DNA from: Prochlorococcus sp. AG-363-M17
GTDB taxonomy: Bacteria; Cyanobacteriota; Cyanobacteriia; PCC-6307; Cyanobiaceae
DNA: 64,000 nt
Assembly (NCBI GenBank): GCA_003278365.1
Contig: QCFS01000003.1
Coordinates: forward strand, 1-64,000
Reading direction: 5' to 3'
In this document: in pieces, positions 10,068-43,972 of the stretch
Numbering within the stretch: position 1 is the stretch's first letter
Layout of the letters: each line of letters opens with the position of its first letter
Translations under genes and position numbers: made by a program
Notes under the pieces: generated by a model
The model's input: only the letters and a program-made list of their open reading frames with translations
Told to the model about the DNA's origin: nothing
The model's database searches: none

Positions 10068-13000
10068 TCAAACCAATAAGGGGTCAGTGCAGCGAGCATT
10101 GAAATCCTTTTGAAGCAAAGAATGCATTGCAGCCTTAGCATCTCGCACACAAAACTGATGTCCTAACCGTACGTATGTAAGGCCGGAGTTTTGTCTAATT
10201 GCTGCAACAACAGGCACTTTTACTCCAAATTCATCTTTTGCAGGAATATGTTGAGAAAGACATTCTCTAAGTCGATGTAACAAAGCAAAGTCAACTGCCT
10301 GGGAAGGCAATAACTCGATCAAAAGTAGACAAAGGTCATCAATTGCTCGACAGTCATCAACTATTAACTGCACACGATCATCCCGACGATCAACTGAAGC
10401 CCAAACCAGCAAACTTGCTTCTAGCATCAGATGATCACAAAGCCGCGCATAGCTTTTAGGAAAGACCACTGCCTCACAGCTACCTGTTAGATCTTCAAGC
10501 TGAAGAACTGCCATACGGTCGCCTTTGCGAGTCGTCACTTGTCTCAATTCTGAGATCATTGCAATGACACTAACTTTTGACTTATCAGCCTGGTTATCAA
10601 TACTTCCAATACCAATAGGAGCAAGAAGTTTGGCTGATGACCTTAATTGCTTTAAAGGATGATCAGAAAGATAAAAGCCAACCAACTCTTTTTCTCTTCG
10701 AAGCTTCTCTGTAGGGGGATAGTCTTCAACAGAAGGAGCTTTTGGTGCATTCTTTGAAGCATCTAACGATTGATCTTCATCTTCACTCGCCACCAAATCA
10801 AATAAATTACCTTGTCCACTCTCTCTATCCTTTGCTCGTGAAGAAGCCCATTCAATAATTAAGTCCAAGTCTGCAATTAACTGAGCTCTATTTGCATTCT
10901 CATCCATAGAATCTAAAGCTCCACAATGAATCAAAGACTCCAAACATCTTCTGTTTAAAATGTTCAATGGCAAACGATCACAAAGCTCCGCTAAAGAGTT
11001 AAATGGCCCATCACTTTCACGACTCTGAATAAGATTTCTAATGGCACCATCACCAAGATTTCTTACCGCTGAAAGTCCAAAAAGTATAGATTTCCCTTGT
11101 GGAGTAAAGTCAATTCCAGAAGTATTTATTTCAGGAGGCATAACCTCTATTCCCATTGAATTACAATTAGATATATATCTCTGAATCTTTTCAGTTGCGC
11201 CAGAGTTAACTGTCAACAATGCTGCCATATATGCAACAGGATAATGAGCTTTAAGATATGCAGTCTGATAAGTAACAGCACCATATGCTGTTGAATGACT
11301 TTTATTAAAACAGTACTCAGCAAATAAAACCATTTGATCAAAAAGTTGATCAGCAATTTGTGACTCCACACCTGTTGTCTTCAATGCTCCATTAACAAAT
11401 AAGTCCCTATGTTTTTGCATCTCTGCTACCTTCTTCTTGCCCATAGCTCTACGTAAAAGATCTGCCTCACCTAGAGAGTAGCCAGCAAGGTCTTGAGCTA
11501 TTCTCATAATCTGTTCTTGATAAACCATAATCCCATAAGTCTCATCAAGGATTGGTTCCAAAGAGGAATGAACGAATTCAATTCCCTCACGCCCGTGCTT
11601 ACGATTAATAAACTTTGGGATAAGGCCAGCGTCTAATGGGCCTGGTCTATATAGGGCCAAAATAGAAGAAATATCTTCCAAGGAAGATGGTTTCAAATCT
11701 CTTACAATTTGGCGCATGCCTGATGACTCAAGTTGGAAGACTCCTTCTAGGTCTCCTCGAGCAAGAAGTGCAAAGGTATCAGGGTCCTCTTTGGGCAAAC
11801 TATCTGCATCTACTTTCTCTCCAGAACTTGCTTCAACAAGTTCTAAGGTTTTATCAATCATAGTTAGATTTTTCAACCCTAGGAAGTCCATCTTGAGCAA
11901 ACCCATAGACTCAACATCTTCCATAAAATATTGAGTAATGATTTGACCATCATTGTTTCTCTGAAGTGGCACAAGATTATCTAAAGGCTCTGCTGCAATA
12001 ACCACACCAGCAGCATGAACTCCAAAAGTTTTATTAGTACCCTCAATTCGAATAGCCATGTCGACCCACTTCTTAACTGATGGATCATTAATATATTTCT
12101 CTCTAAACTGACTATTAGGAGATTTTTCACTGATCATTGCTGACAACTTTGCAGGTTTTCCCCGCACAACGGGAATCAATTTTGCTAATCGATCGGCTTC
12201 TCCATATGGGATATCTAGAACTCGAGCAACGTCTTTCAAGACCGCCTTTGATGTCATCCTATTGAAAGTAATAATCTGGGCGACCTTATCTTCTCCATAA
12301 CGAGAAGTTACATAGTCAATAACTTCTCCTCTTCTCTCAATACAGAAATCCGTATCAATGTCAGGCATAGATTTACGTTCTGGATTTAGAAATCTCTCAA
12401 ACAGAAGGCCAGTTCTTACTGGGTCAATATTGGTAATCCTAAGTGCATATGCAACCAACGAACCAGCTGCAGATCCTCTACCTGGTCCAACAGGGATTTT
12501 CTTATCTCTTGCAAAACGAATGTAATCCCAAACAACAAGAAAATAAGTTGCAAAACCCATCTGCTCAATAATCTCAAGCTCATAAGATAATCTTTTAAAA
12601 TATTCTTCATTAATGTCTTGATCTATAGATAAGCCTAGATGATTCCTTAACCCTTCTTCTGCTACTTCACGCAAGTAACTCTCAGCTGTATATCCATTAG
12701 GAATTGGAAAAAGGGGCATTTGGTAGCCACGGAGAATTTGATATTCCTCAACCTTTTCTGCAACTAGTGCTGTATTTTGTATCGCCTTATTAACGATCTC
12801 TGGTTCAATATGATCTGAAAAAAGAAGACCCATTTCTTTTTCAGATTTTATATATTCAGTTCCGGTATATCTCAACCTTTTATCATCACTAATCAACTTA
12901 CCGGTAAGTACACATAGCAAGGCATCATGAGCATCAACATCATATTTACTGAGATAGTGCGCGTCATTAGTAGCGATCAAATCAATTCCTAATTCCTTTG

Positions 13001-35129: not shown

Positions 35130-36401
35130 ATGAAAGCAAGATCGGAAACTGAACCGTGGGTATCGAGTCTGAGGACCTTTATACGGGATTCTCTTGGTAA
35201 TAGTTGGCAGGTCAAAGACAAAGGAGGAACCACTAACCTGCGGATTCGCTTAGACGATGGAACAAGGGTTTATCGAAATCTTGGTTTGCCATGGTGCAAA
35301 GCATCTGCAGCAAGCATTCGAGAATCAGTAGAAGAAATCCACGAACTTGTCATACACCAAAAGGTCTCAGTTGATGAGGCAGTGAAACGAGTCAAGCAAA
35401 CACGATCTAAAACTCCTAAAGCAGCAAGACGAGCGAATCCAAAACTCCTCATCACTGCATGGGAGAGCTATGAGAACTACAAAGTCAATGTCAGTGGAGA
35501 CGTGAGTCAAAAGACATGGGACGTTGAATATGGCAAAACGTTCCGCAGGCTCAAAGAAATTGCAGCATCGAATGCTAATGATCTACTGATTGAAATTGGC
35601 AAACAATACGAACCAGGATCGAGAAGCAGACAGATCAGAGTTCAACATATAGCTGCCTTTTTGCGGTGGGCCACCTCTAGAGCATCAGGTCATTTCTTAC
35701 CTGCTGATAACTGGACTCCCCCGCCTAAAAATGCCCTAGGAGACTATGTGGGACGCAAGTCTGCCAAGAAGCAACAAGAGTCCTCTAATCCGACTGTGGT
35801 TATAGAAGATGAGGATCTGCTGGGGCTGATCAACTCACTACCGATTGATCTTGATAAGGCTGAGAAGAAACACCGATTACGTGATCGTGCAATGGAATGG
35901 GATCTAGCTCTCAAGCTTGCAATTGTTTATGGATTGCGTCCCATCGAAGTCAGTTACGACTATTTAGAGATTAAAAAGAATGGAAAAGACTATCTGTTCT
36001 GTACCTACTGCAAGAAAGCTGGTGGAGGCATTACTAAACCCAGAAGACTATGGCCCCTACATCCTGAGTGGGAGGAGAAGTGGAAACTCGTTCAAAGAAT
36101 CAAACGCAAAGACCCTCTTCCCCGAATGAAAGCAGGTGCTGGTGATGCTTTTAAAAATTACCTGCGCTTTAACCAAGTTTGGAAAAGACTAAAGGCTGAG
36201 AGTGGAGTAGTGCCCTACAGCTTCCGGCATTCGTACAGTAAACGAGGGCATCAGGTCTACAAGCTTTCTGATACAGAGATGGCCGCCTTTATGGGTCACA
36301 CCGTCCAAGTACATAACGCTGCTTATGCCCAATGGAGCAGTGAATCAATGTTGGAAGCATCGATGGAACGCGGTATTCGATATAGAGATCTCACCTCTTA
36401 A
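35130..36401 (+). CDS. tyrosine recombinase / integrase
   Basis: 423 aa; catalytic motifs YGLRPIEV, YSFRHSYSKRGH and FMGHTVQVHNAAYAQW; adjacent to an att repeat. Confidence 0.9.
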   Translation: MKARSETEPWVSSLRTFIRDSLGNSWQVKDKGGTTNLRIRLDDGTRVYRNLGLPWCKASAASIRESVEEIHELVIHQKVSVDEAVKRVKQTRSKTPKAARRANPKLLITAWESYENYKVNVSGDVSQKTWDVEYGKTFRRLKEIAASNANDLLIEIGKQYEPGSRSRQIRVQHIAAFLRWATSRASGHFLPADNWTPPPKNALGDYVGRKSAKKQQESSNPTVVIEDEDLLGLINSLPIDLDKAEKKHRLRDRAMEWDLALKLAIVYGLRPIEVSYDYLEIKKNGKDYLFCTYCKKAGGGITKPRRLWPLHPEWEEKWKLVQRIKRKDPLPRMKAGAGDAFKNYLRFNQVWKRLKAESGVVPYSFRHSYSKRGHQVYKLSDTEMAAFMGHTVQVHNAAYAQWSSESMLEASMERGIRYRDLTS

Positions 36402-36724
36402 CTTGTTAATTGATGAGTACAACTAGAGTCTTCTAAGCTCATATCTACTAACCAATCTTTATCGATGCCAAGGAGTTCAATAGCCTTTAATTCAAAACCA
36501 TCAAGTTCAAAGTAGTTGTAAGGAACCTTTACCCGTAAGGTTAATTGCCCCTCTTCTCTTGAAATGGAGTGATTGGAAAATCCAAGTTCTTCCAAATTTC
36601 CATCAACATCATTTGAGATAGTTAGTCTTAAGATCTTCTTTAGATTCCATGGGGATTTATCCATGAAACTTGCTTGATCTTCCCAGTATTGTTTATAAGC
36701 ATGGAACCCTTTCTTGATGTTCAT
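36398..36724 (-). CDS. hypothetical protein, copy 1 of a duplicated gene
   Basis: 108 aa MNIKKGFHAYKQYWEDQ..., differs from 43646..43972 by G/E plus the final residue. Confidence 0.65.
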   Translation of the reverse strand: MNIKKGFHAYKQYWEDQASFMDKSPWNLKKILRLTISNDVDGNLEELGFSNHSISREEGQLTLRVKVPYNYFELDGFELKAIELLGIDKDWLVDMSLEDSSCTHQLTS

Positions 36725-37158: not shown

Positions 37159-37797
37159 TCACCGAATAACTGGTTGATTCGACAGCAAAATGCGTCCATT
37201 CTTAGATTTCTTTAGCCAGCCATCATCCTTTAAATGATTCATCATTCTTGTCACAGTAACACGAGTAATTCCTAATGCATCTGCTATTTGGTCATGATTT
37301 ATCTTAAAGCCAAAGACGATACCACCTTCGACTACATGTCCAAAGTCAAGAGCAAGCATTTCAAGAAATGCTTGCATTTTCTTTTTTGTATTCTTTATAC
37401 CTAAAACAACTAAGAATGATTCCACATAATTATTGCGAGCAACAATTGATTGAAATATTAACTGCGAGATAGATCCCGAAGCATAAGCTTCATCTATGTT
37501 TAAACAAAGGACATCACAATCACAAAGAGCCAAGGCATTGTATCCATCAATTCTAGACAAAGGTTCACCAAAAGATTGTCCAGGCCCTACAAACCCAAGC
37601 ACAGATACGGCCTCATTTTTGTTCTCTGCAGATAAAAAAGCAGCGCCTCGAACTAAGAGCCATATCTGATTTTTCAGCATAGGAAAAAAACTTTTTGCTG
37701 AGATGTGCACAAGATTTCTTTTTGCATAAGTAGTTTCCAAAAACTCAAGGGCTCCTTCGTAAGAGTCGATGAGACTTGGTCTTTCAAGCAAAGTCAA
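37159..37797 (-). CDS. ptrA: Crp/Fnr-family transcriptional regulator, PtrA-like
   Basis: Cyclic-nucleotide-binding-like N-terminus, HTH DQIADALGITRVTVTRMMNHLKDDGWL; divergent from pstS as in Prochlorococcus phosphate clusters. Confidence 0.75.
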   Translation of the reverse strand: MTLLERPSLIDSYEGALEFLETTYAKRNLVHISAKSFFPMLKNQIWLLVRGAAFLSAENKNEAVSVLGFVGPGQSFGEPLSRIDGYNALALCDCDVLCLNIDEAYASGSISQLIFQSIVARNNYVESFLVVLGIKNTKKKMQAFLEMLALDFGHVVEGGIVFGFKINHDQIADALGITRVTVTRMMNHLKDDGWLKKSKNGRILLSNQPVIR

Positions 37798-37881
37798 ATG
37801 AATCCTCCAGGCAGATAAAGAAAGCTCACTGATGCCCTAGGGCAAAGGCGAAGCAATGGCAACACCTTACATCAAATCTTC

Positions 37882-37923
37882 TTGATGCATCAACAAGGCT
37901 TGATCTTATCAAGATATTTTGAT
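37882..37923. promoter_or_regulatory. tandem ArsR-type operators between ptrA and pstS
   Basis: TTGAT-GC-ATCAA-CAAGGC-TTGAT-CTT-ATCAA-GATATT-TTGAT: two exact ATCAA-N6-TTGAT repeats (37889-37904, 37908-37923). Confidence 0.65.
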
Positions 37924-37955
37924 TAGTATCTGAAAGCCATGTTCGTGCGCCTCTC

Positions 37956-38957
37956 ATGACCTTCTCAAGGAAGGTGATTTCCTTCGCTTCTATTGCCACC
38001 CTTGGGGCTGGCATCGTTGCATGTGGAACAACTGATTCAACCTCCAGTGTTCGCCTAAGTGGTGCTGGAGCATCTTTCCCCGCAAAGATCTACACCCGAT
38101 GGTTCTCTGATCTGGCTAAATCTGGAGGGCCAAAGGTTAACTACCAAGCCGTTGGGTCTGGGTCTGGGCGTAAAGCATTCATTGATCAAACCGTTGACTT
38201 TGGAGCTTCGGATGATCCGATGAAAGCGAAAGACATCGCCAAGGTCACTCGTGGCTTAGTGCAAATTCCTATGGTGGGAGGCACCATCGCCTTTGGCTAC
38301 AACAAGCCAGATTGTGATCTTAAGTTGACCCAACTCCAAGCGGTCAGAGTCGCAATGGGTAAAATCAAAGACTGGAGAAAACTCGGTTGTCCTGCTGGAA
38401 AACTCACTTGGGTCCATCGTTCTGATGGTTCAGGAACGACCAAAGCTTTTACCAATTCAATGCAAGCTTTCTCAAATGACTCCAGTGAATGGTCTCTAGG
38501 TACTGGTAAATCAGTCAAGTGGCCAGCAGGTGTAGGGGGCAAAGGCAACGCAGGGGTCGCAGGTTTAATCAGACAAACACCTGGAGCCATCGGTTACGTC
38601 AACCAGTCCTACATAAGAGGGGACGTAAGAGCCGCAGCTCTACAAAACCTTTCAGGTGAATTCTTGAAGCCAAGCACCAAAGCAGGAGCTGCGGCTCTAA
38701 ACGGAATCAGATTGGATCGAAATCTTGCAGGTAAAAATCCAAATCCAACTGCAAGAGGTGCCTATCCAATCGCTACTCTGACTTGGGTTCTAGCTTACGA
38801 AACAGGCAATGGTTCTAAAACAGAAGCCATTAAAGAATCACTAAAATATCTTTTAAGTAATAAGGCTCAAGCAAAAGCTCCAACTTTAGGATTCGTTCCT
38901 CTTAAAGGAGACATTCTTAAAAAAGCTCGTTCAGCTGTCAATAGGATTGGGAAGTAA
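37956..38957 (+). CDS. pstS: phosphate ABC transporter substrate-binding protein
   Basis: Lipoprotein-like IVACGTT; LSGAGASFPAKIYTRWFSDL...YQAVGSGSGRKAFIDQTVDFGASDDPM...HRSDGSGTTKAF. Confidence 0.95.
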   Translation: MTFSRKVISFASIATLGAGIVACGTTDSTSSVRLSGAGASFPAKIYTRWFSDLAKSGGPKVNYQAVGSGSGRKAFIDQTVDFGASDDPMKAKDIAKVTRGLVQIPMVGGTIAFGYNKPDCDLKLTQLQAVRVAMGKIKDWRKLGCPAGKLTWVHRSDGSGTTKAFTNSMQAFSNDSSEWSLGTGKSVKWPAGVGGKGNAGVAGLIRQTPGAIGYVNQSYIRGDVRAAALQNLSGEFLKPSTKAGAAALNGIRLDRNLAGKNPNPTARGAYPIATLTWVLAYETGNGSKTEAIKESLKYLLSNKAQAKAPTLGFVPLKGDILKKARSAVNRIGK

Positions 38958-39337: not shown

Positions 39338-40576
39338 CTACAAAAATAAAATTTGGATGGTCATACCTAGGGCAATAGATATCGCAACTAATTTATAAGG
39401 CTTTATGGATTGTTTAAAACTTATGATTAGACTAATAAAAAAGATTAGACTATAAATACAAGTTTCAAAGATATTTTTGCCAAAAATGACCTTACCCGTC
39501 ATCGGTATGACTACGGCAAGAATTGCACCCGGTATGCCTGATAACACTCCATTAATATAGTTGGCTATACTTACTTTTGTTTTGATCCTTTGTATCAAAG
39601 GGTCCCCTAGAAGAATAAAAATAAAACTTGGTAAAAATATCGCGAATGTTGAGATGAGGGAGAAAAATGTTCCTAAAAGAATAGATCCTTCTTTTGCACC
39701 AACTTGAAAACCTATAAATGCACTTGAAAGAACTACTGGCCCTGGAGAGAGTTGACCTATGGCTATAGCATCAATAAAACTACGACTATCCAACCAACCC
39801 ATCTCAATTACTTGAGTTTGTAGAAGTGGAATAATTACTAGCCCTCCACCAAAAACCAGCAAACCTGCTTTAAAGAATACATAAAATAACTTTAAAGAGT
39901 TGGATGATAGATTGCCTATATCTTCTCGAAATATTGGAACCGTTAAAAAACTTGGGAAACTAAATGAACTTAGATCGACATAAGAATGCTCAAAGCCAGA
40001 AGGAATAAAGAAAAAACTCAGAAATCTCTTTGAATTATTTTGATAGATTCCGAAAATTCCAGCTAGCAATAAAAGCAATGTAATAGGTAAATGGAGTGAA
40101 GTTGATCTATCAATAATTGACCCAATAAATACAAAAATAGCTATTGTCAATTGCCATACTTGGCTACGTTTTTTTAATAGGTTTAAAGCAAAACCCCAAA
40201 TGATTGAAGTTACAATTATTTGAGGAATAGACAAAAAAACCGGAAAATTTTCAAATGATTGTCCATGTCTCCAAAGTTGGCTCAAAAGTAAAATGATGAA
40301 AAATCCAGGCAATAAAAAACATATCCCACTTATCAATCCTCCGTAAAAACCTTTTATCTTTGTCCCTAAAAAGATTGCTAATTGGCTTGATGTCGGCCCA
40401 GGTAATATTTCGCAAATACCCAATCCTTGATCAAACTCTTGCTCAGAAACCCAATTCCTTTGAGTTATGATCTCGTCTTTAAACATAGCTATGTGCGCAA
40501 ATGGGCCACCAAAACTAAAGAGTCCTATTCTCAGAAAAGTTGAACTCAGTTCAGTAAATCTTGCGGTCACTTTCAA
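39338..40576 (-). CDS. chrA: chromate transporter ChrA
   Basis: FLRIGLFSFGGPFAHIAMFKDEII...CEILPGPTSSQLAIFLG...and second-half FKAGLLVFGGGLVIIPLLQ...IGQLSPGPV. Confidence 0.93.
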   Translation of the reverse strand: MKVTARFTELSSTFLRIGLFSFGGPFAHIAMFKDEIITQRNWVSEQEFDQGLGICEILPGPTSSQLAIFLGTKIKGFYGGLISGICFLLPGFFIILLLSQLWRHGQSFENFPVFLSIPQIIVTSIIWGFALNLLKKRSQVWQLTIAIFVFIGSIIDRSTSLHLPITLLLLLAGIFGIYQNNSKRFLSFFFIPSGFEHSYVDLSSFSFPSFLTVPIFREDIGNLSSNSLKLFYVFFKAGLLVFGGGLVIIPLLQTQVIEMGWLDSRSFIDAIAIGQLSPGPVVLSSAFIGFQVGAKEGSILLGTFFSLISTFAIFLPSFIFILLGDPLIQRIKTKVSIANYINGVLSGIPGAILAVVIPMTGKVIFGKNIFETCIYSLIFFISLIISFKQSIKPYKLVAISIALGMTIQILFL

Positions 40577-40628: not shown

Positions 40629-41891
40629 TCAGGCTTTTTCAATGGCTATAGCACTTGAAACTGGTGGTAGTCGTAGACTTGTCAACAATGAGATAAATAC
40701 AAATAAGCTTGAACACCATAAACATAGTTGCATTCCTATAGAGGCATTTGTACCAAGCATGAATAGGACACCTGATAAGAGCGTACCAATCAGTCTTCCA
40801 GCCGCATTTGCCATGTAATAGAAGCCCACGTTTAGACTTACGTTTTCCTTATCCGTATATGCAAGAACCATATATGAATGTATCGATGAGTTCATTGCAA
40901 AAATGAATCCAAATGTTATTAATCCAACTGTAATTGCTATTTCTGGATTGCTATGTCGCCATAGTGCTATAGCTATTAAAGCTGGTATTGCCGTTAAGAC
41001 AGCGCTCCAGAATTGAACAGAAGAAACTCCTGGGCTTGTTTTATTTCCCCATAAATTTCTTAAAGACGGCGCAAACGCTTGGATAAAGCCATAACCAATA
41101 ACCCAGAATCCTAGGAAAGCTCCAATCTCAGAAAAATTCCAATTTAGATACGTTTCAAGAAAAACAGGTAGTGCTACGACGAACCATACGTCTCTTGCCC
41201 CAAAGAGAAAAAAGCGTGCAAAAGAGAGGACATTGATCCCTTCAGATTTAGAAAATAAGTCTTTGAAGATTGGTTTGCTTTTCATCTTCCCAATATCTCC
41301 AGGCAAAATTAATGTCAATAAAAACGAAACACCTAAACCGATTGCCATTAATTCAACTGCTTTATTAAAACCAAAACTGGTCAGCAAAAGTCCACCAAGA
41401 AAAAAGCCAACTCCTTTGAGTGCATTTTTTGAACCAGTTAAGATAGCAACCCATTTGAATAATTGATTATTTCCACCATCTTCTTCAGGGGAATCTGGAA
41501 CGACAGTTTTGATTGCACTTTTGGCACTCATTTTATTGAGATCCTTTGCTACACCACTAATCGCTTGAGCAACCATGACATAAATGACACTCAAAAGTTT
41601 CGACCAACCACTTGAAACTGGTATCAACATCAATAAGGCACCTATTTGTAAAAGTGTCCCTACCCATAGTGTTAGACGTAATCCATATCTTGCTCCAATC
41701 CATCCACCATAGAGATTAGTGACGATGCCAAAGAACTCGTAAAAAAGGAATAAGAATGCGATTTCTAAGGTTGTATATCCAAGGCTATGAAAGTGAAAAA
41801 TCACTAGCATCCTTAGAGCACCATCTGTCAGAGTGAATGCCCAATAGTTGGTCGTTACGATCCCGTATTGCTGTAGTGACGATAATTTCAT
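40629..41891 (-). CDS. arsJ: organoarsenical efflux MFS transporter ArsJ
   Basis: YGIVTTNYWAFTLTDGALRMLVIFHFHSLGYTTLEIAFLFLFYEFFGIVTNLYGGWIGAR; next to a GAPDH gene. Confidence 0.9.
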   Translation of the reverse strand: MKLSSLQQYGIVTTNYWAFTLTDGALRMLVIFHFHSLGYTTLEIAFLFLFYEFFGIVTNLYGGWIGARYGLRLTLWVGTLLQIGALLMLIPVSSGWSKLLSVIYVMVAQAISGVAKDLNKMSAKSAIKTVVPDSPEEDGGNNQLFKWVAILTGSKNALKGVGFFLGGLLLTSFGFNKAVELMAIGLGVSFLLTLILPGDIGKMKSKPIFKDLFSKSEGINVLSFARFFLFGARDVWFVVALPVFLETYLNWNFSEIGAFLGFWVIGYGFIQAFAPSLRNLWGNKTSPGVSSVQFWSAVLTAIPALIAIALWRHSNPEIAITVGLITFGFIFAMNSSIHSYMVLAYTDKENVSLNVGFYYMANAAGRLIGTLLSGVLFMLGTNASIGMQLCLWCSSLFVFISLLTSLRLPPVSSAIAIEKA

Positions 41892-41902
41892 TTGGTTATC
41901 TT

Positions 41903-42931
41903 TTAACCTTTGCTATCTAGATTCACGACATAAGAAGTCAAGTCAGCCATCCGACAGCTATAACCCCATTCATTGTCATACCAGGCAAAAACCTTTAATT
42001 GATTCTCATCTATAACCATTGTGGACAAAGCATCAATAATTGAACTGCGTGAATCATTGACGTAGTCAATAGAGACTAAGGGTCTTTCTTCATAACCAAG
42101 AATTCCTTTTAAGTCTCCTTCCGCTGCACGTTGAAAAGCGTCATTAACCTCTTGAACTGAGACCTTTCTCTCAAGTTCGAAAACGGCATCAGTCAGGGAT
42201 GCATTCAACAGTGGAACACGTACAGCATGTCCGTTTAATTTGCCTTGAAGCTCTGGGAAAATCATGCCTATTGCCTTCGCCGAACCGGTAGTAGTAGGAA
42301 TAAGACTTTGAATGCTGCTACGGGCTCGTCTTAGATCACTTTTAAATGAGTCAATTGGCACTTGTGTATTCGTGATGTCATGGAGTGTGGTAATGGCTCC
42401 ATGGATAATGCCAAAACTTTCATTGACAACTTTGACAACTGGTGCCAAGCAATTGGTTGTACACGATGCAGCTGTGACTAGTCGATGAATCTTAGGGTCG
42501 TAAAGATTATGGTTGATTCCATAGACGATATTTAGAGCTTCTGTCCCTGCCACTTCACCTGTCACGGGACAAGCAACAACAACTCTTTTAATGCCACACT
42601 GATCAAAGTAAGGGTTTAATAGTTCTGGTGTTTTTATCTTTCCACTGCATTCCAGAACAAAGTCAACACCCGCCTGCTCCCATGGAACATTAGTGGGAGC
42701 ACTCTCTTGCGAGTAGCTAAGAAATTGACCATCAATCTTGATCCCTTTTAAGTCGGAATCAATGTGCTGGTCCCAACGACCATGAACGGAGTCAAATTCC
42801 AGTAGATGAGCTGCTGTTGGAGCATCTCCTGCTGGGTCATTGATATGAACGAGTTCAATATTGGAACGACCCCATAAGGCACGAAAAACTAAGCGGCCAA
42901 TCCGACCAAAACCATTAATACCAATGCGCAT
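41903..42931 (-). CDS. ArsJ-associated glyceraldehyde-3-phosphate dehydrogenase
   Basis: [19 protein letters not shown]...[16 protein letters not shown]...[13 protein letters not shown]; arsJ immediately downstream. Confidence 0.92.
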
Positions 42932-42994
42932 TGAACCAACTAGCAGTAAAAAAAAGAACGCTCTGGGCTTCAAAGAAAAGCTACCTTAGAACGC

Positions 42995-43028
42995 ATCAAT
43001 TTATTTTGATATATCAACCCTGCTTGGT
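42995..43028. promoter_or_regulatory. tandem ArsR-type operators between GAPDH and arsR
   Basis: ATCAA-TTTATT-TTGAT-AT-ATCAA-CCCTGC-TTGGT: one exact and one single-mismatch ATCAA-N6-TTGAT. Confidence 0.65.
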
Positions 43029-43091
43029 GCAAGCTATTGTGTGATTGGTTCAAAAATTGATAGCAAAAACCTTTGTAGATCATTTGGATTC

Positions 43092-43421
43092 ATGGGAGCA
43101 GTAGTTGCTGAAGAAAATGTGCTTGCGGCAAGTCAAGCCAGTGGGCTTCTCAAGGCCTTAGCCGATCCTCTTCGTATGGAAGTCATTCAATCTTTATCAG
43201 AAGGAGAGTGTTGTGTTTGTGATCTGATGAAAAAGACAGATCTTGCACAATCACGCCTTTCATTTCATCTCAAGGTTCTAAAAGATTCAGGATTAATTAC
43301 AGACCGTCAAAGCGGACGTTGGGTGTACTACAAATTGGATCTAAAAGCGTTTCAATTATTAGAAGATTGGATAGCTGATCTGAAAAAGAGTTGTAAGAAT
43401 GCAGCAAAGCCTTGTTCTTAA
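43092..43421 (+). CDS. arsR: ArsR-family transcriptional repressor
   Basis: LLKALADPLRMEVIQSLSEGECCVCDLMKKTDLAQSRLSFHLKVLKDSGLITDRQSGRWVYYKL. Confidence 0.93.
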   Translation: MGAVVAEENVLAASQASGLLKALADPLRMEVIQSLSEGECCVCDLMKKTDLAQSRLSFHLKVLKDSGLITDRQSGRWVYYKLDLKAFQLLEDWIADLKKSCKNAAKPCS

Positions 43422-43645: not shown

Positions 43646-43972
43646 TTACTTTGTTAATTGATGAGTACAACTAGAGTCTTCTAAGCTCATATCTACTAAC
43701 CAATCTTTATCGATGCCAAGGAGTTCAATAGCCTTTAATTCAAAACCATCAAGTTCAAAGTAGTTGTAAGGAACCTTTACCCGTAAGGTTAATTGCCCCT
43801 CTTCTCTTGAAATGGAGTGATTGGAAAATTCAAGTTCTTCCAAATTTCCATCAACATCATTTGAGATAGTTAGTCTTAAGATCTTCTTTAGATTCCATGG
43901 GGATTTATCCATGAAACTTGCTTGATCTTCCCAGTATTGTTTATAAGCATGGAACCCTTTCTTGATGTTCAT
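43646..43972 (-). CDS. hypothetical protein, copy 2 of a duplicated gene
   Basis: Near identical to 36398..36724. Confidence 0.65.
   Translation of the reverse strand: MNIKKGFHAYKQYWEDQASFMDKSPWNLKKILRLTISNDVDGNLEELEFSNHSISREEGQLTLRVKVPYNYFELDGFELKAIELLGIDKDWLVDMSLEDSSCTHQLTK

Follow-up and report, generated by a model that had tools for sequence, protein, structure and literature searches.

An array of predicted ArsR operators in the promoter region of a Prochlorococcus phosphate-binding protein gene

The control of pstS by an arsenic repressor is not new as an idea, because ArsR1 of Agrobacterium tumefaciens 5A binds and represses pstS1-phoB1 (PMC7965956). In Synechocystis PCC 6803, the ArsR regulon comprises only five genes, and arsenic represses the pst genes (PMC4010505). 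The footprinted ArsR site of Synechocystis is ATCAA-N6-TTGAT, present in two repeats (Lopez-Maury 2003, via PMC4585019), and another paper gives the same motif as the core consensus of ArsR (PMC9137774). Prochlorococcus is the most abundant phototroph, and phosphate stress in the ocean is widely tracked with pstS as a marker. Here, we analyse a 64-kb stretch of DNA (the window) from a Prochlorococcus-like assembly that is 74% complete, in which three exact copies of this motif separate pstS from a divergent regulator gene. These palindromes are likely operators through which the ArsR encoded 5 kb downstream controls pstS, bearing in mind that binding, the direction of regulation and its benefit are all inferred. 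The genes of the cassette are:

37159-37797, minus strand: ptrA-like Crp-family regulator, divergent from pstS, predicted ArsR target (best profile NF053664, PtrA)
37956-38957, plus strand: pstS, phosphate-binding protein, predicted ArsR target (TIGR00975, 237.9 bits, cut-off 205)
39338-40576, minus strand: chrA, chromate-type transporter (TIGR00937, 228 bits, cut-off 171.7)
40629-41891, minus strand: arsJ, organoarsenical efflux MFS permease (NF033734, 574 bits, cut-off 400)
41903-42973, minus strand: ArsJ-associated GAPDH (NF033735, 549 bits, cut-off 450)
43041-43421, plus strand: arsR, As(III)-sensing repressor (NF033788, HTH_metalloreg, 91.2 bits, cut-off 55)

ArsJ and GAPDH form a detoxification pair, encoded by adjacent genes that both exceed curated cut-offs; the true GAPDH start is probably near 42931. 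For arsR, homologues point to the ATG at 43092 as the likely start, in agreement with the first-pass annotation, and the protein carries the alpha-3 As(III) site C-x-C (ECCVCDL), with CVC invariant across the aligned orthologues. The Crp-family regulator reaches 187 bits on the PtrA profile and not its equivalog cut-off of 300, and is thus called PtrA-like only, while chrA is tied to the cassette by linkage alone. Near-identical 108-aa orphan proteins (MNIKKGFHAYKQYWEDQ...) are encoded at 36398-36724 and 43646-43972 (both minus strand); together with similar flanking DNA they stand in direct orientation on either side of the ptrA-pstS-chrA-arsJ-GAPDH-arsR cassette. The copies tested had no match in NCBIfam, nor in Pfam or PHROGs where these were tried, and it is possible that the pair marks the ends of a recombining cassette. 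Beside the duplicated orphan, 35130-36401 (plus strand) encodes a 423-aa protein that looks like a tyrosine recombinase by eye (FRHSY...AAFMGH...) and has no match in Pfam, NCBIfam or PHROGs.

The regulatory elements of the two intergenic regions are:

37871-37886, no strand: ArsR-type operator 1, ATCAAATCTTCTTGAT, exact palindrome, kept at -85 in L148-L150
37889-37904, no strand: ArsR-type operator 2, ATCAACAAGGCTTGAT, exact, orthologous site in other lineages
37908-37923, no strand: ArsR-type operator 3, ATCAAGATATTTTGAT, exact, orthologous site in other lineages
37900-37929, plus strand: putative pstS core promoter, TTGATC (37900-37905), 18 bp, TAGTAT (37924-37929)
42995-43010, no strand: ArsR-type operator of the GAPDH-arsR region, ATCAATTTATTTTGAT, exact
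43013-43028, no strand: second GAPDH-arsR operator, ATCAACCCTGCTTGGT, one mismatch

The anatomy of the array is plain: three exact ATCAA-N6-TTGAT palindromes spanning 37871-37923 start 85, 67 and 48 bp before the pstS ATG (37956) and are joined by linkers of 2 and 3 bp. A chance origin is rejected by the shuffle counts, as five exact sites occur in the window against an expected 0.29 (maximum 2 among 100 shuffles) and none of 20,000 shuffles of the 158-bp ptrA-like/pstS intergenic region contained two. Of the 12 exact sites in the 1.41-Mb genome, four lie within this 5-kb stretch; the other eight mostly fall within coding sequence. The first-pass annotation had read 37882-37923 as two such palindromes: its letters are correct, but its count is too low because the left half of palindrome 1 falls outside that interval. 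Its claim that the GAPDH-arsR promoter has the same architecture also held (an exact site at 42995 and a one-mismatch site at 43013, with a period of 18 bp), as did its assignment of the motif to the ArsR type, given the literature consensus and the presence of the motif in every arsR-GAPDH region examined.

Indeed, at least one exact copy is found in 76 of the 76 picocyanobacterial arsR-GAPDH regions fetched (in three of these, the exact copy overlaps an end of the protein alignment), which ties the operator to arsR. Where copies are paired in these regions, the linker is 2 bp in 53/53 cases; the second GAPDH-arsR operator, imperfect in the window, is exact in the close relatives L145-L148 and L158. 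Pairs in pstS promoters are instead mostly joined by 3 bp (38/43). The half-site spacer is strictly 6: 126 sites upstream of pstS have it, and no other length between 2 and 12 has more than one. We conclude that the motif is the published ArsR operator, an identity that rests on the literature and not on binding data obtained here. An FNR-like reading of the same letters, TTGAT-Nx-ATCAA, was rejected since its gaps (2 and 3 bp) vary when the ATCAA-TTGAT gap is always 6.

Placement of the pstS promoter relies on a reading of the sequence and on a TTGAT-TA(A/G)TRT stretch that lineages other than high-light Prochlorococcus conserve behind the last palindrome; a generic promoter scan did not report it (8/12 matches, under the scan threshold). 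In most non-high-light lineages, the last palindrome runs directly into a TA-rich hexamer that is conserved (TAGTAT in the window) and lies 18 bp from a TTGAT half-site able to act as a -35. The right half of operator 2 thus overlaps the putative -35 and operator 3 occupies the putative -35/-10 spacer, a classical repressor position, for a promoter inferred from conservation. The geometry differs in high-light Prochlorococcus (group g18), where the operators stand well upstream of a TATAAA-like -10, and a simple steric block therefore fits less well there. Across relatives, exact half-sites are kept while spacers and flanks diverge; in that alignment half-site conservation is a product of row selection, but the divergence around it is not.

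The operator is conserved well beyond the window. In a family survey, 133 of 400 genomes contain the paired operator and none contains a reversed control pattern (0/400). In the 30 loci fetched from this survey, arsR-GAPDH regions and the sequences upstream of pstS account for nearly every pair, apart from the orphan pair of L145-type genomes and a copy beside a damaged arsR (L021). Pairs upstream of pstS occur across Prochlorococcus and in some marine Synechococcus, and fall within the promoter in most non-high-light lineages. The orphan pair (5722-5756 in L145, also in L147, L156 and L157) stands about 1 kb past the arsR 3' end, where no pstS adjoins it. Its sequence is nearly identical to operators in the pstS promoters of other clades, and it is perhaps what is left of a pstS copy that was lost.

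The genomes of 85,462 prokaryotic species were also scanned by pattern, without a protein query and with a viral scan added, which extends this picture. At least 95 paired sites belong to ars clusters (68 at arsR/GAPDH, 26 at pstS and one orphan) and at least 43 lie elsewhere; an ArsR-family gene stands no more than 400 bp from 20 of the latter, and several of the remainder adjoin acr3, the arsenite permease gene. Viral contigs yielded four paired sites, none of them near pstS (0/4). Outside the family, L233, L238 (Pleurocapsa-type) and L344 (one further family) align arsR, the paired operator, a PstS-family gene (TIGR02136, over cut-off) and acr3 in the same direction, and arsR, the operator and a PstS-family gene also occur in L345, which belongs to a different family again. 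With four such loci outside the family, operators at pstS are hard to call an accident of one lineage.

Pho boxes and the ATCAA-N6-TTGAT operator are nearly mutually exclusive at pstS. Pho-box-like sites, defined as triplets of TTAA with an 11-bp period, are found in only 3/76 operator-type pstS promoters versus 37/78 others, and within high-light Prochlorococcus in 2/42 versus 33/39; some promoter counts rest on near-identical genomes. Near the window pstS there is no Pho box, the best candidate having 4 mismatches in 12 (shuffle p 0.66). In the PstS tree, high-light Prochlorococcus proteins form two paralogue clades, one with a Pho box in 33/34 and the other with the operator in 33/37. The operator follows the paralogue and not the position: when the arsJ cluster contains a Pho-type pstS, it is the other, unlinked copy that has the operator.

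Whether the palindrome at pstS depends on arsR is less clear-cut. Outside g18, an exact palindrome stands upstream of a pstS in 32/51 genomes with arsR versus 1/10 without (Fisher 0.004, relatedness uncorrected). Inside g18 there is no association with arsR, the palindrome being present at pstS in 28/47 genomes with arsR versus 7/12 in which arsR was not found (Fisher 1.0). Some arsR-less g18 genomes have altered sites, with point changes in G228, G269, G363 and G394 and a one-base insertion in G244, as expected after loss of arsR; other genomes are unaltered. No ArsR/SmtB protein was found in G251 and G366, two high-light genomes listed as 100% complete. Both retain an exact palindrome upstream of pstS (L115 and L335). 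Palindromes without arsR could reflect recent loss, incomplete assemblies, reuse of a half-site as promoter or another binder, all of which remain possible. In high-light Prochlorococcus, the pstS of ChrA-type clusters is close to arsR and has a Pho box and no operator. The first-pass annotation had made its reading refutable by an absence of the repeats from pstS promoters next to arsR; the outcome of that check is mixed.

Phosphate regulators may belong to the same regulon. ptrA-like genes located apart from pstS have their own palindrome 38-45 bp upstream, and these separate operators support ptrA as a second ArsR target. In L145, L146 and L159, the gene divergent from pstS encodes a PhoB-like response regulator, with a palindrome 12-23 bp upstream of the open frame. 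Operators before both ptrA-like and PhoB-like genes suggest that ArsR may also set the levels of phosphate regulators. The L145 example (12166-12975) scores 187 bits on the PhoB profile, whose cut-off is 296, and has operators at 12010, 12029 and 12139.

Could another protein read these sites? A first alternative is that the neighbouring Crp-family protein PtrA binds the palindromes to control itself and pstS. PtrA is a known phosphate-stress regulator, and ptrA-like genes have a palindrome near their start in three arrangements, which is compatible with autoregulation. However, a PtrA-like protein is absent from 35 of 65 ArsR-positive genomes whereas every arsR region examined has the arsR-GAPDH operator; eight pairs of neighbouring ptrA and pstS genes lack any palindrome (L053, L094, L124, L137, L138, L139, L142 and L143); and neither intergenic region contains an NtcA (GTA-N8-TAC), FNR (TTGAT-N4-ATCAA) or CRP (TGTGA-N6-TCACA) site, despite the NtcA-like recognition helix of PtrA. 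Distribution and site type thus lead us to reject PtrA as the binder, and we regard this alternative as very unlikely. A second is that PhoB controls the window pstS and the palindromes are incidental or vestigial, as might be argued from the Pho boxes of other pstS copies in these organisms and from the palindromes that remain in genomes where arsR was not detected. The scarcity of Pho-box-like triplets in operator-type promoters speaks against it, as does the retention of exact half-sites amid diverged surroundings (with the caveat on row selection given above); PhoB control of the window copy is rejected for want of a Pho box and is equally improbable. Finally, ArsR might bind the array mainly for ptrA, with pstS a mere neighbour, since the array sits between two divergent genes and ptrA-like genes elsewhere have operators of their own, but this is again very unlikely because many genomes without a ptrA-like gene have paired operators upstream of pstS, and the operators hold a fixed place relative to the conserved -10-like element on the pstS side.

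The preferred reading, control by ArsR, suggests the following circuit. Without arsenite in the cell, ArsR dimers would occupy the array and operator 3, in the -35/-10 spacer, would exclude RNA polymerase, so that the window copy of pstS would be silent; the divergent ptrA-like gene would be covered by the same array or, in relatives, by an operator of its own. Once arsenate had entered the cell and been reduced, As(III) would bind the CVC cysteines of ArsR, which would leave the DNA. Its release would start detoxification, in which GAPDH makes 1-arseno-3-phosphoglycerate and ArsJ exports it (a pathway taken from the literature), and would simultaneously provide a dedicated phosphate-binding protein and the PtrA-like regulator. 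The likely benefit would come from the additional PstS, which would favour phosphate over arsenate in loading the Pst permease. ArsR binding, release by As(III) and the arsenic response of pstS are all inferred, as there are no binding or expression data for these promoters.

With this reservation, the proposal made from the sequence alone, that ArsR controls pstS and/or ptrA, is supported because the operator is a known one, is present in all arsR-GAPDH regions, recurs at pstS, also in other families, and rarely coexists with Pho boxes, and because PtrA is an unlikely binder. It is therefore likely, if still an inference, that arsenic, and not phosphate shortage, switches part of the phosphate uptake of marine cyanobacteria. 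A bolder reading is that a whole pstS lineage of marine picocyanobacteria has moved from PhoB control into the arsenic regulon, which it would share with ptrA-like regulators and, in certain clades, PhoB-like ones; the balance tips slightly against this reading at present. If true, intracellular arsenite, which rises at high As:P, would be a second and PhoB-independent cue for phosphate scarcity, and operator-type pstS transcripts in the ocean would report arsenic exposure and not phosphate stress alone. Marker data would need splitting by promoter type if one pstS lineage answers to arsenite via ArsR, and there would be a concrete genetic circuit to set beside the arsenate problem of waters low in phosphate (PMC6426599).

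How does this locus compare with known systems? (i), like arsBHC of Synechocystis PCC 6803, it involves a cyanobacterial ArsR and repeated ATCAA-N6-TTGAT sites in a promoter (two in Synechocystis; PMC4585019), but the Synechocystis regulon includes no phosphate genes, whereas here pstS and ptrA-like genes have the operator; (ii), Agrobacterium 5A offers an arsenite-induced, ArsR-repressed phosphate-binding gene that belongs to an arsenic locus and diverges from the gene of a phosphate regulator, an arrangement that L145-type relatives resemble with pstS divergent from a PhoB-like regulator and an operator on each side. In Agrobacterium, however, a whole pst/pho/phn operon lies in an arsenite-oxidase island, its motifs, among which ATCAA-N6-TTGAT is not reported, are outside the 12-2-12 model (PMC7965956), while the window has the binding protein only, in an arsJ cluster; (iii), Nodularia spumigena shares a phosphate-binding gene in an arsR-sphX-GAPDH-arsJ neighbourhood, for which the relevant sections do not describe an operator or ArsR control (PMC9846622); and (iv), proteobacterial "arsenic islands" similarly co-locate ars and pst genes, a proposed aid to the use of scarce phosphate under arsenic, but they come from a gene-order study of arsenite-oxidisers that included no cyanobacteria (PMC3834237). 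The literature searched yielded no description of ArsR control of pstS in picocyanobacteria. Relative to that literature, what is new is the prediction, which has good support, that a pstS lineage of marine picocyanobacteria is assigned to the arsenic regulon and that this assignment is conserved.
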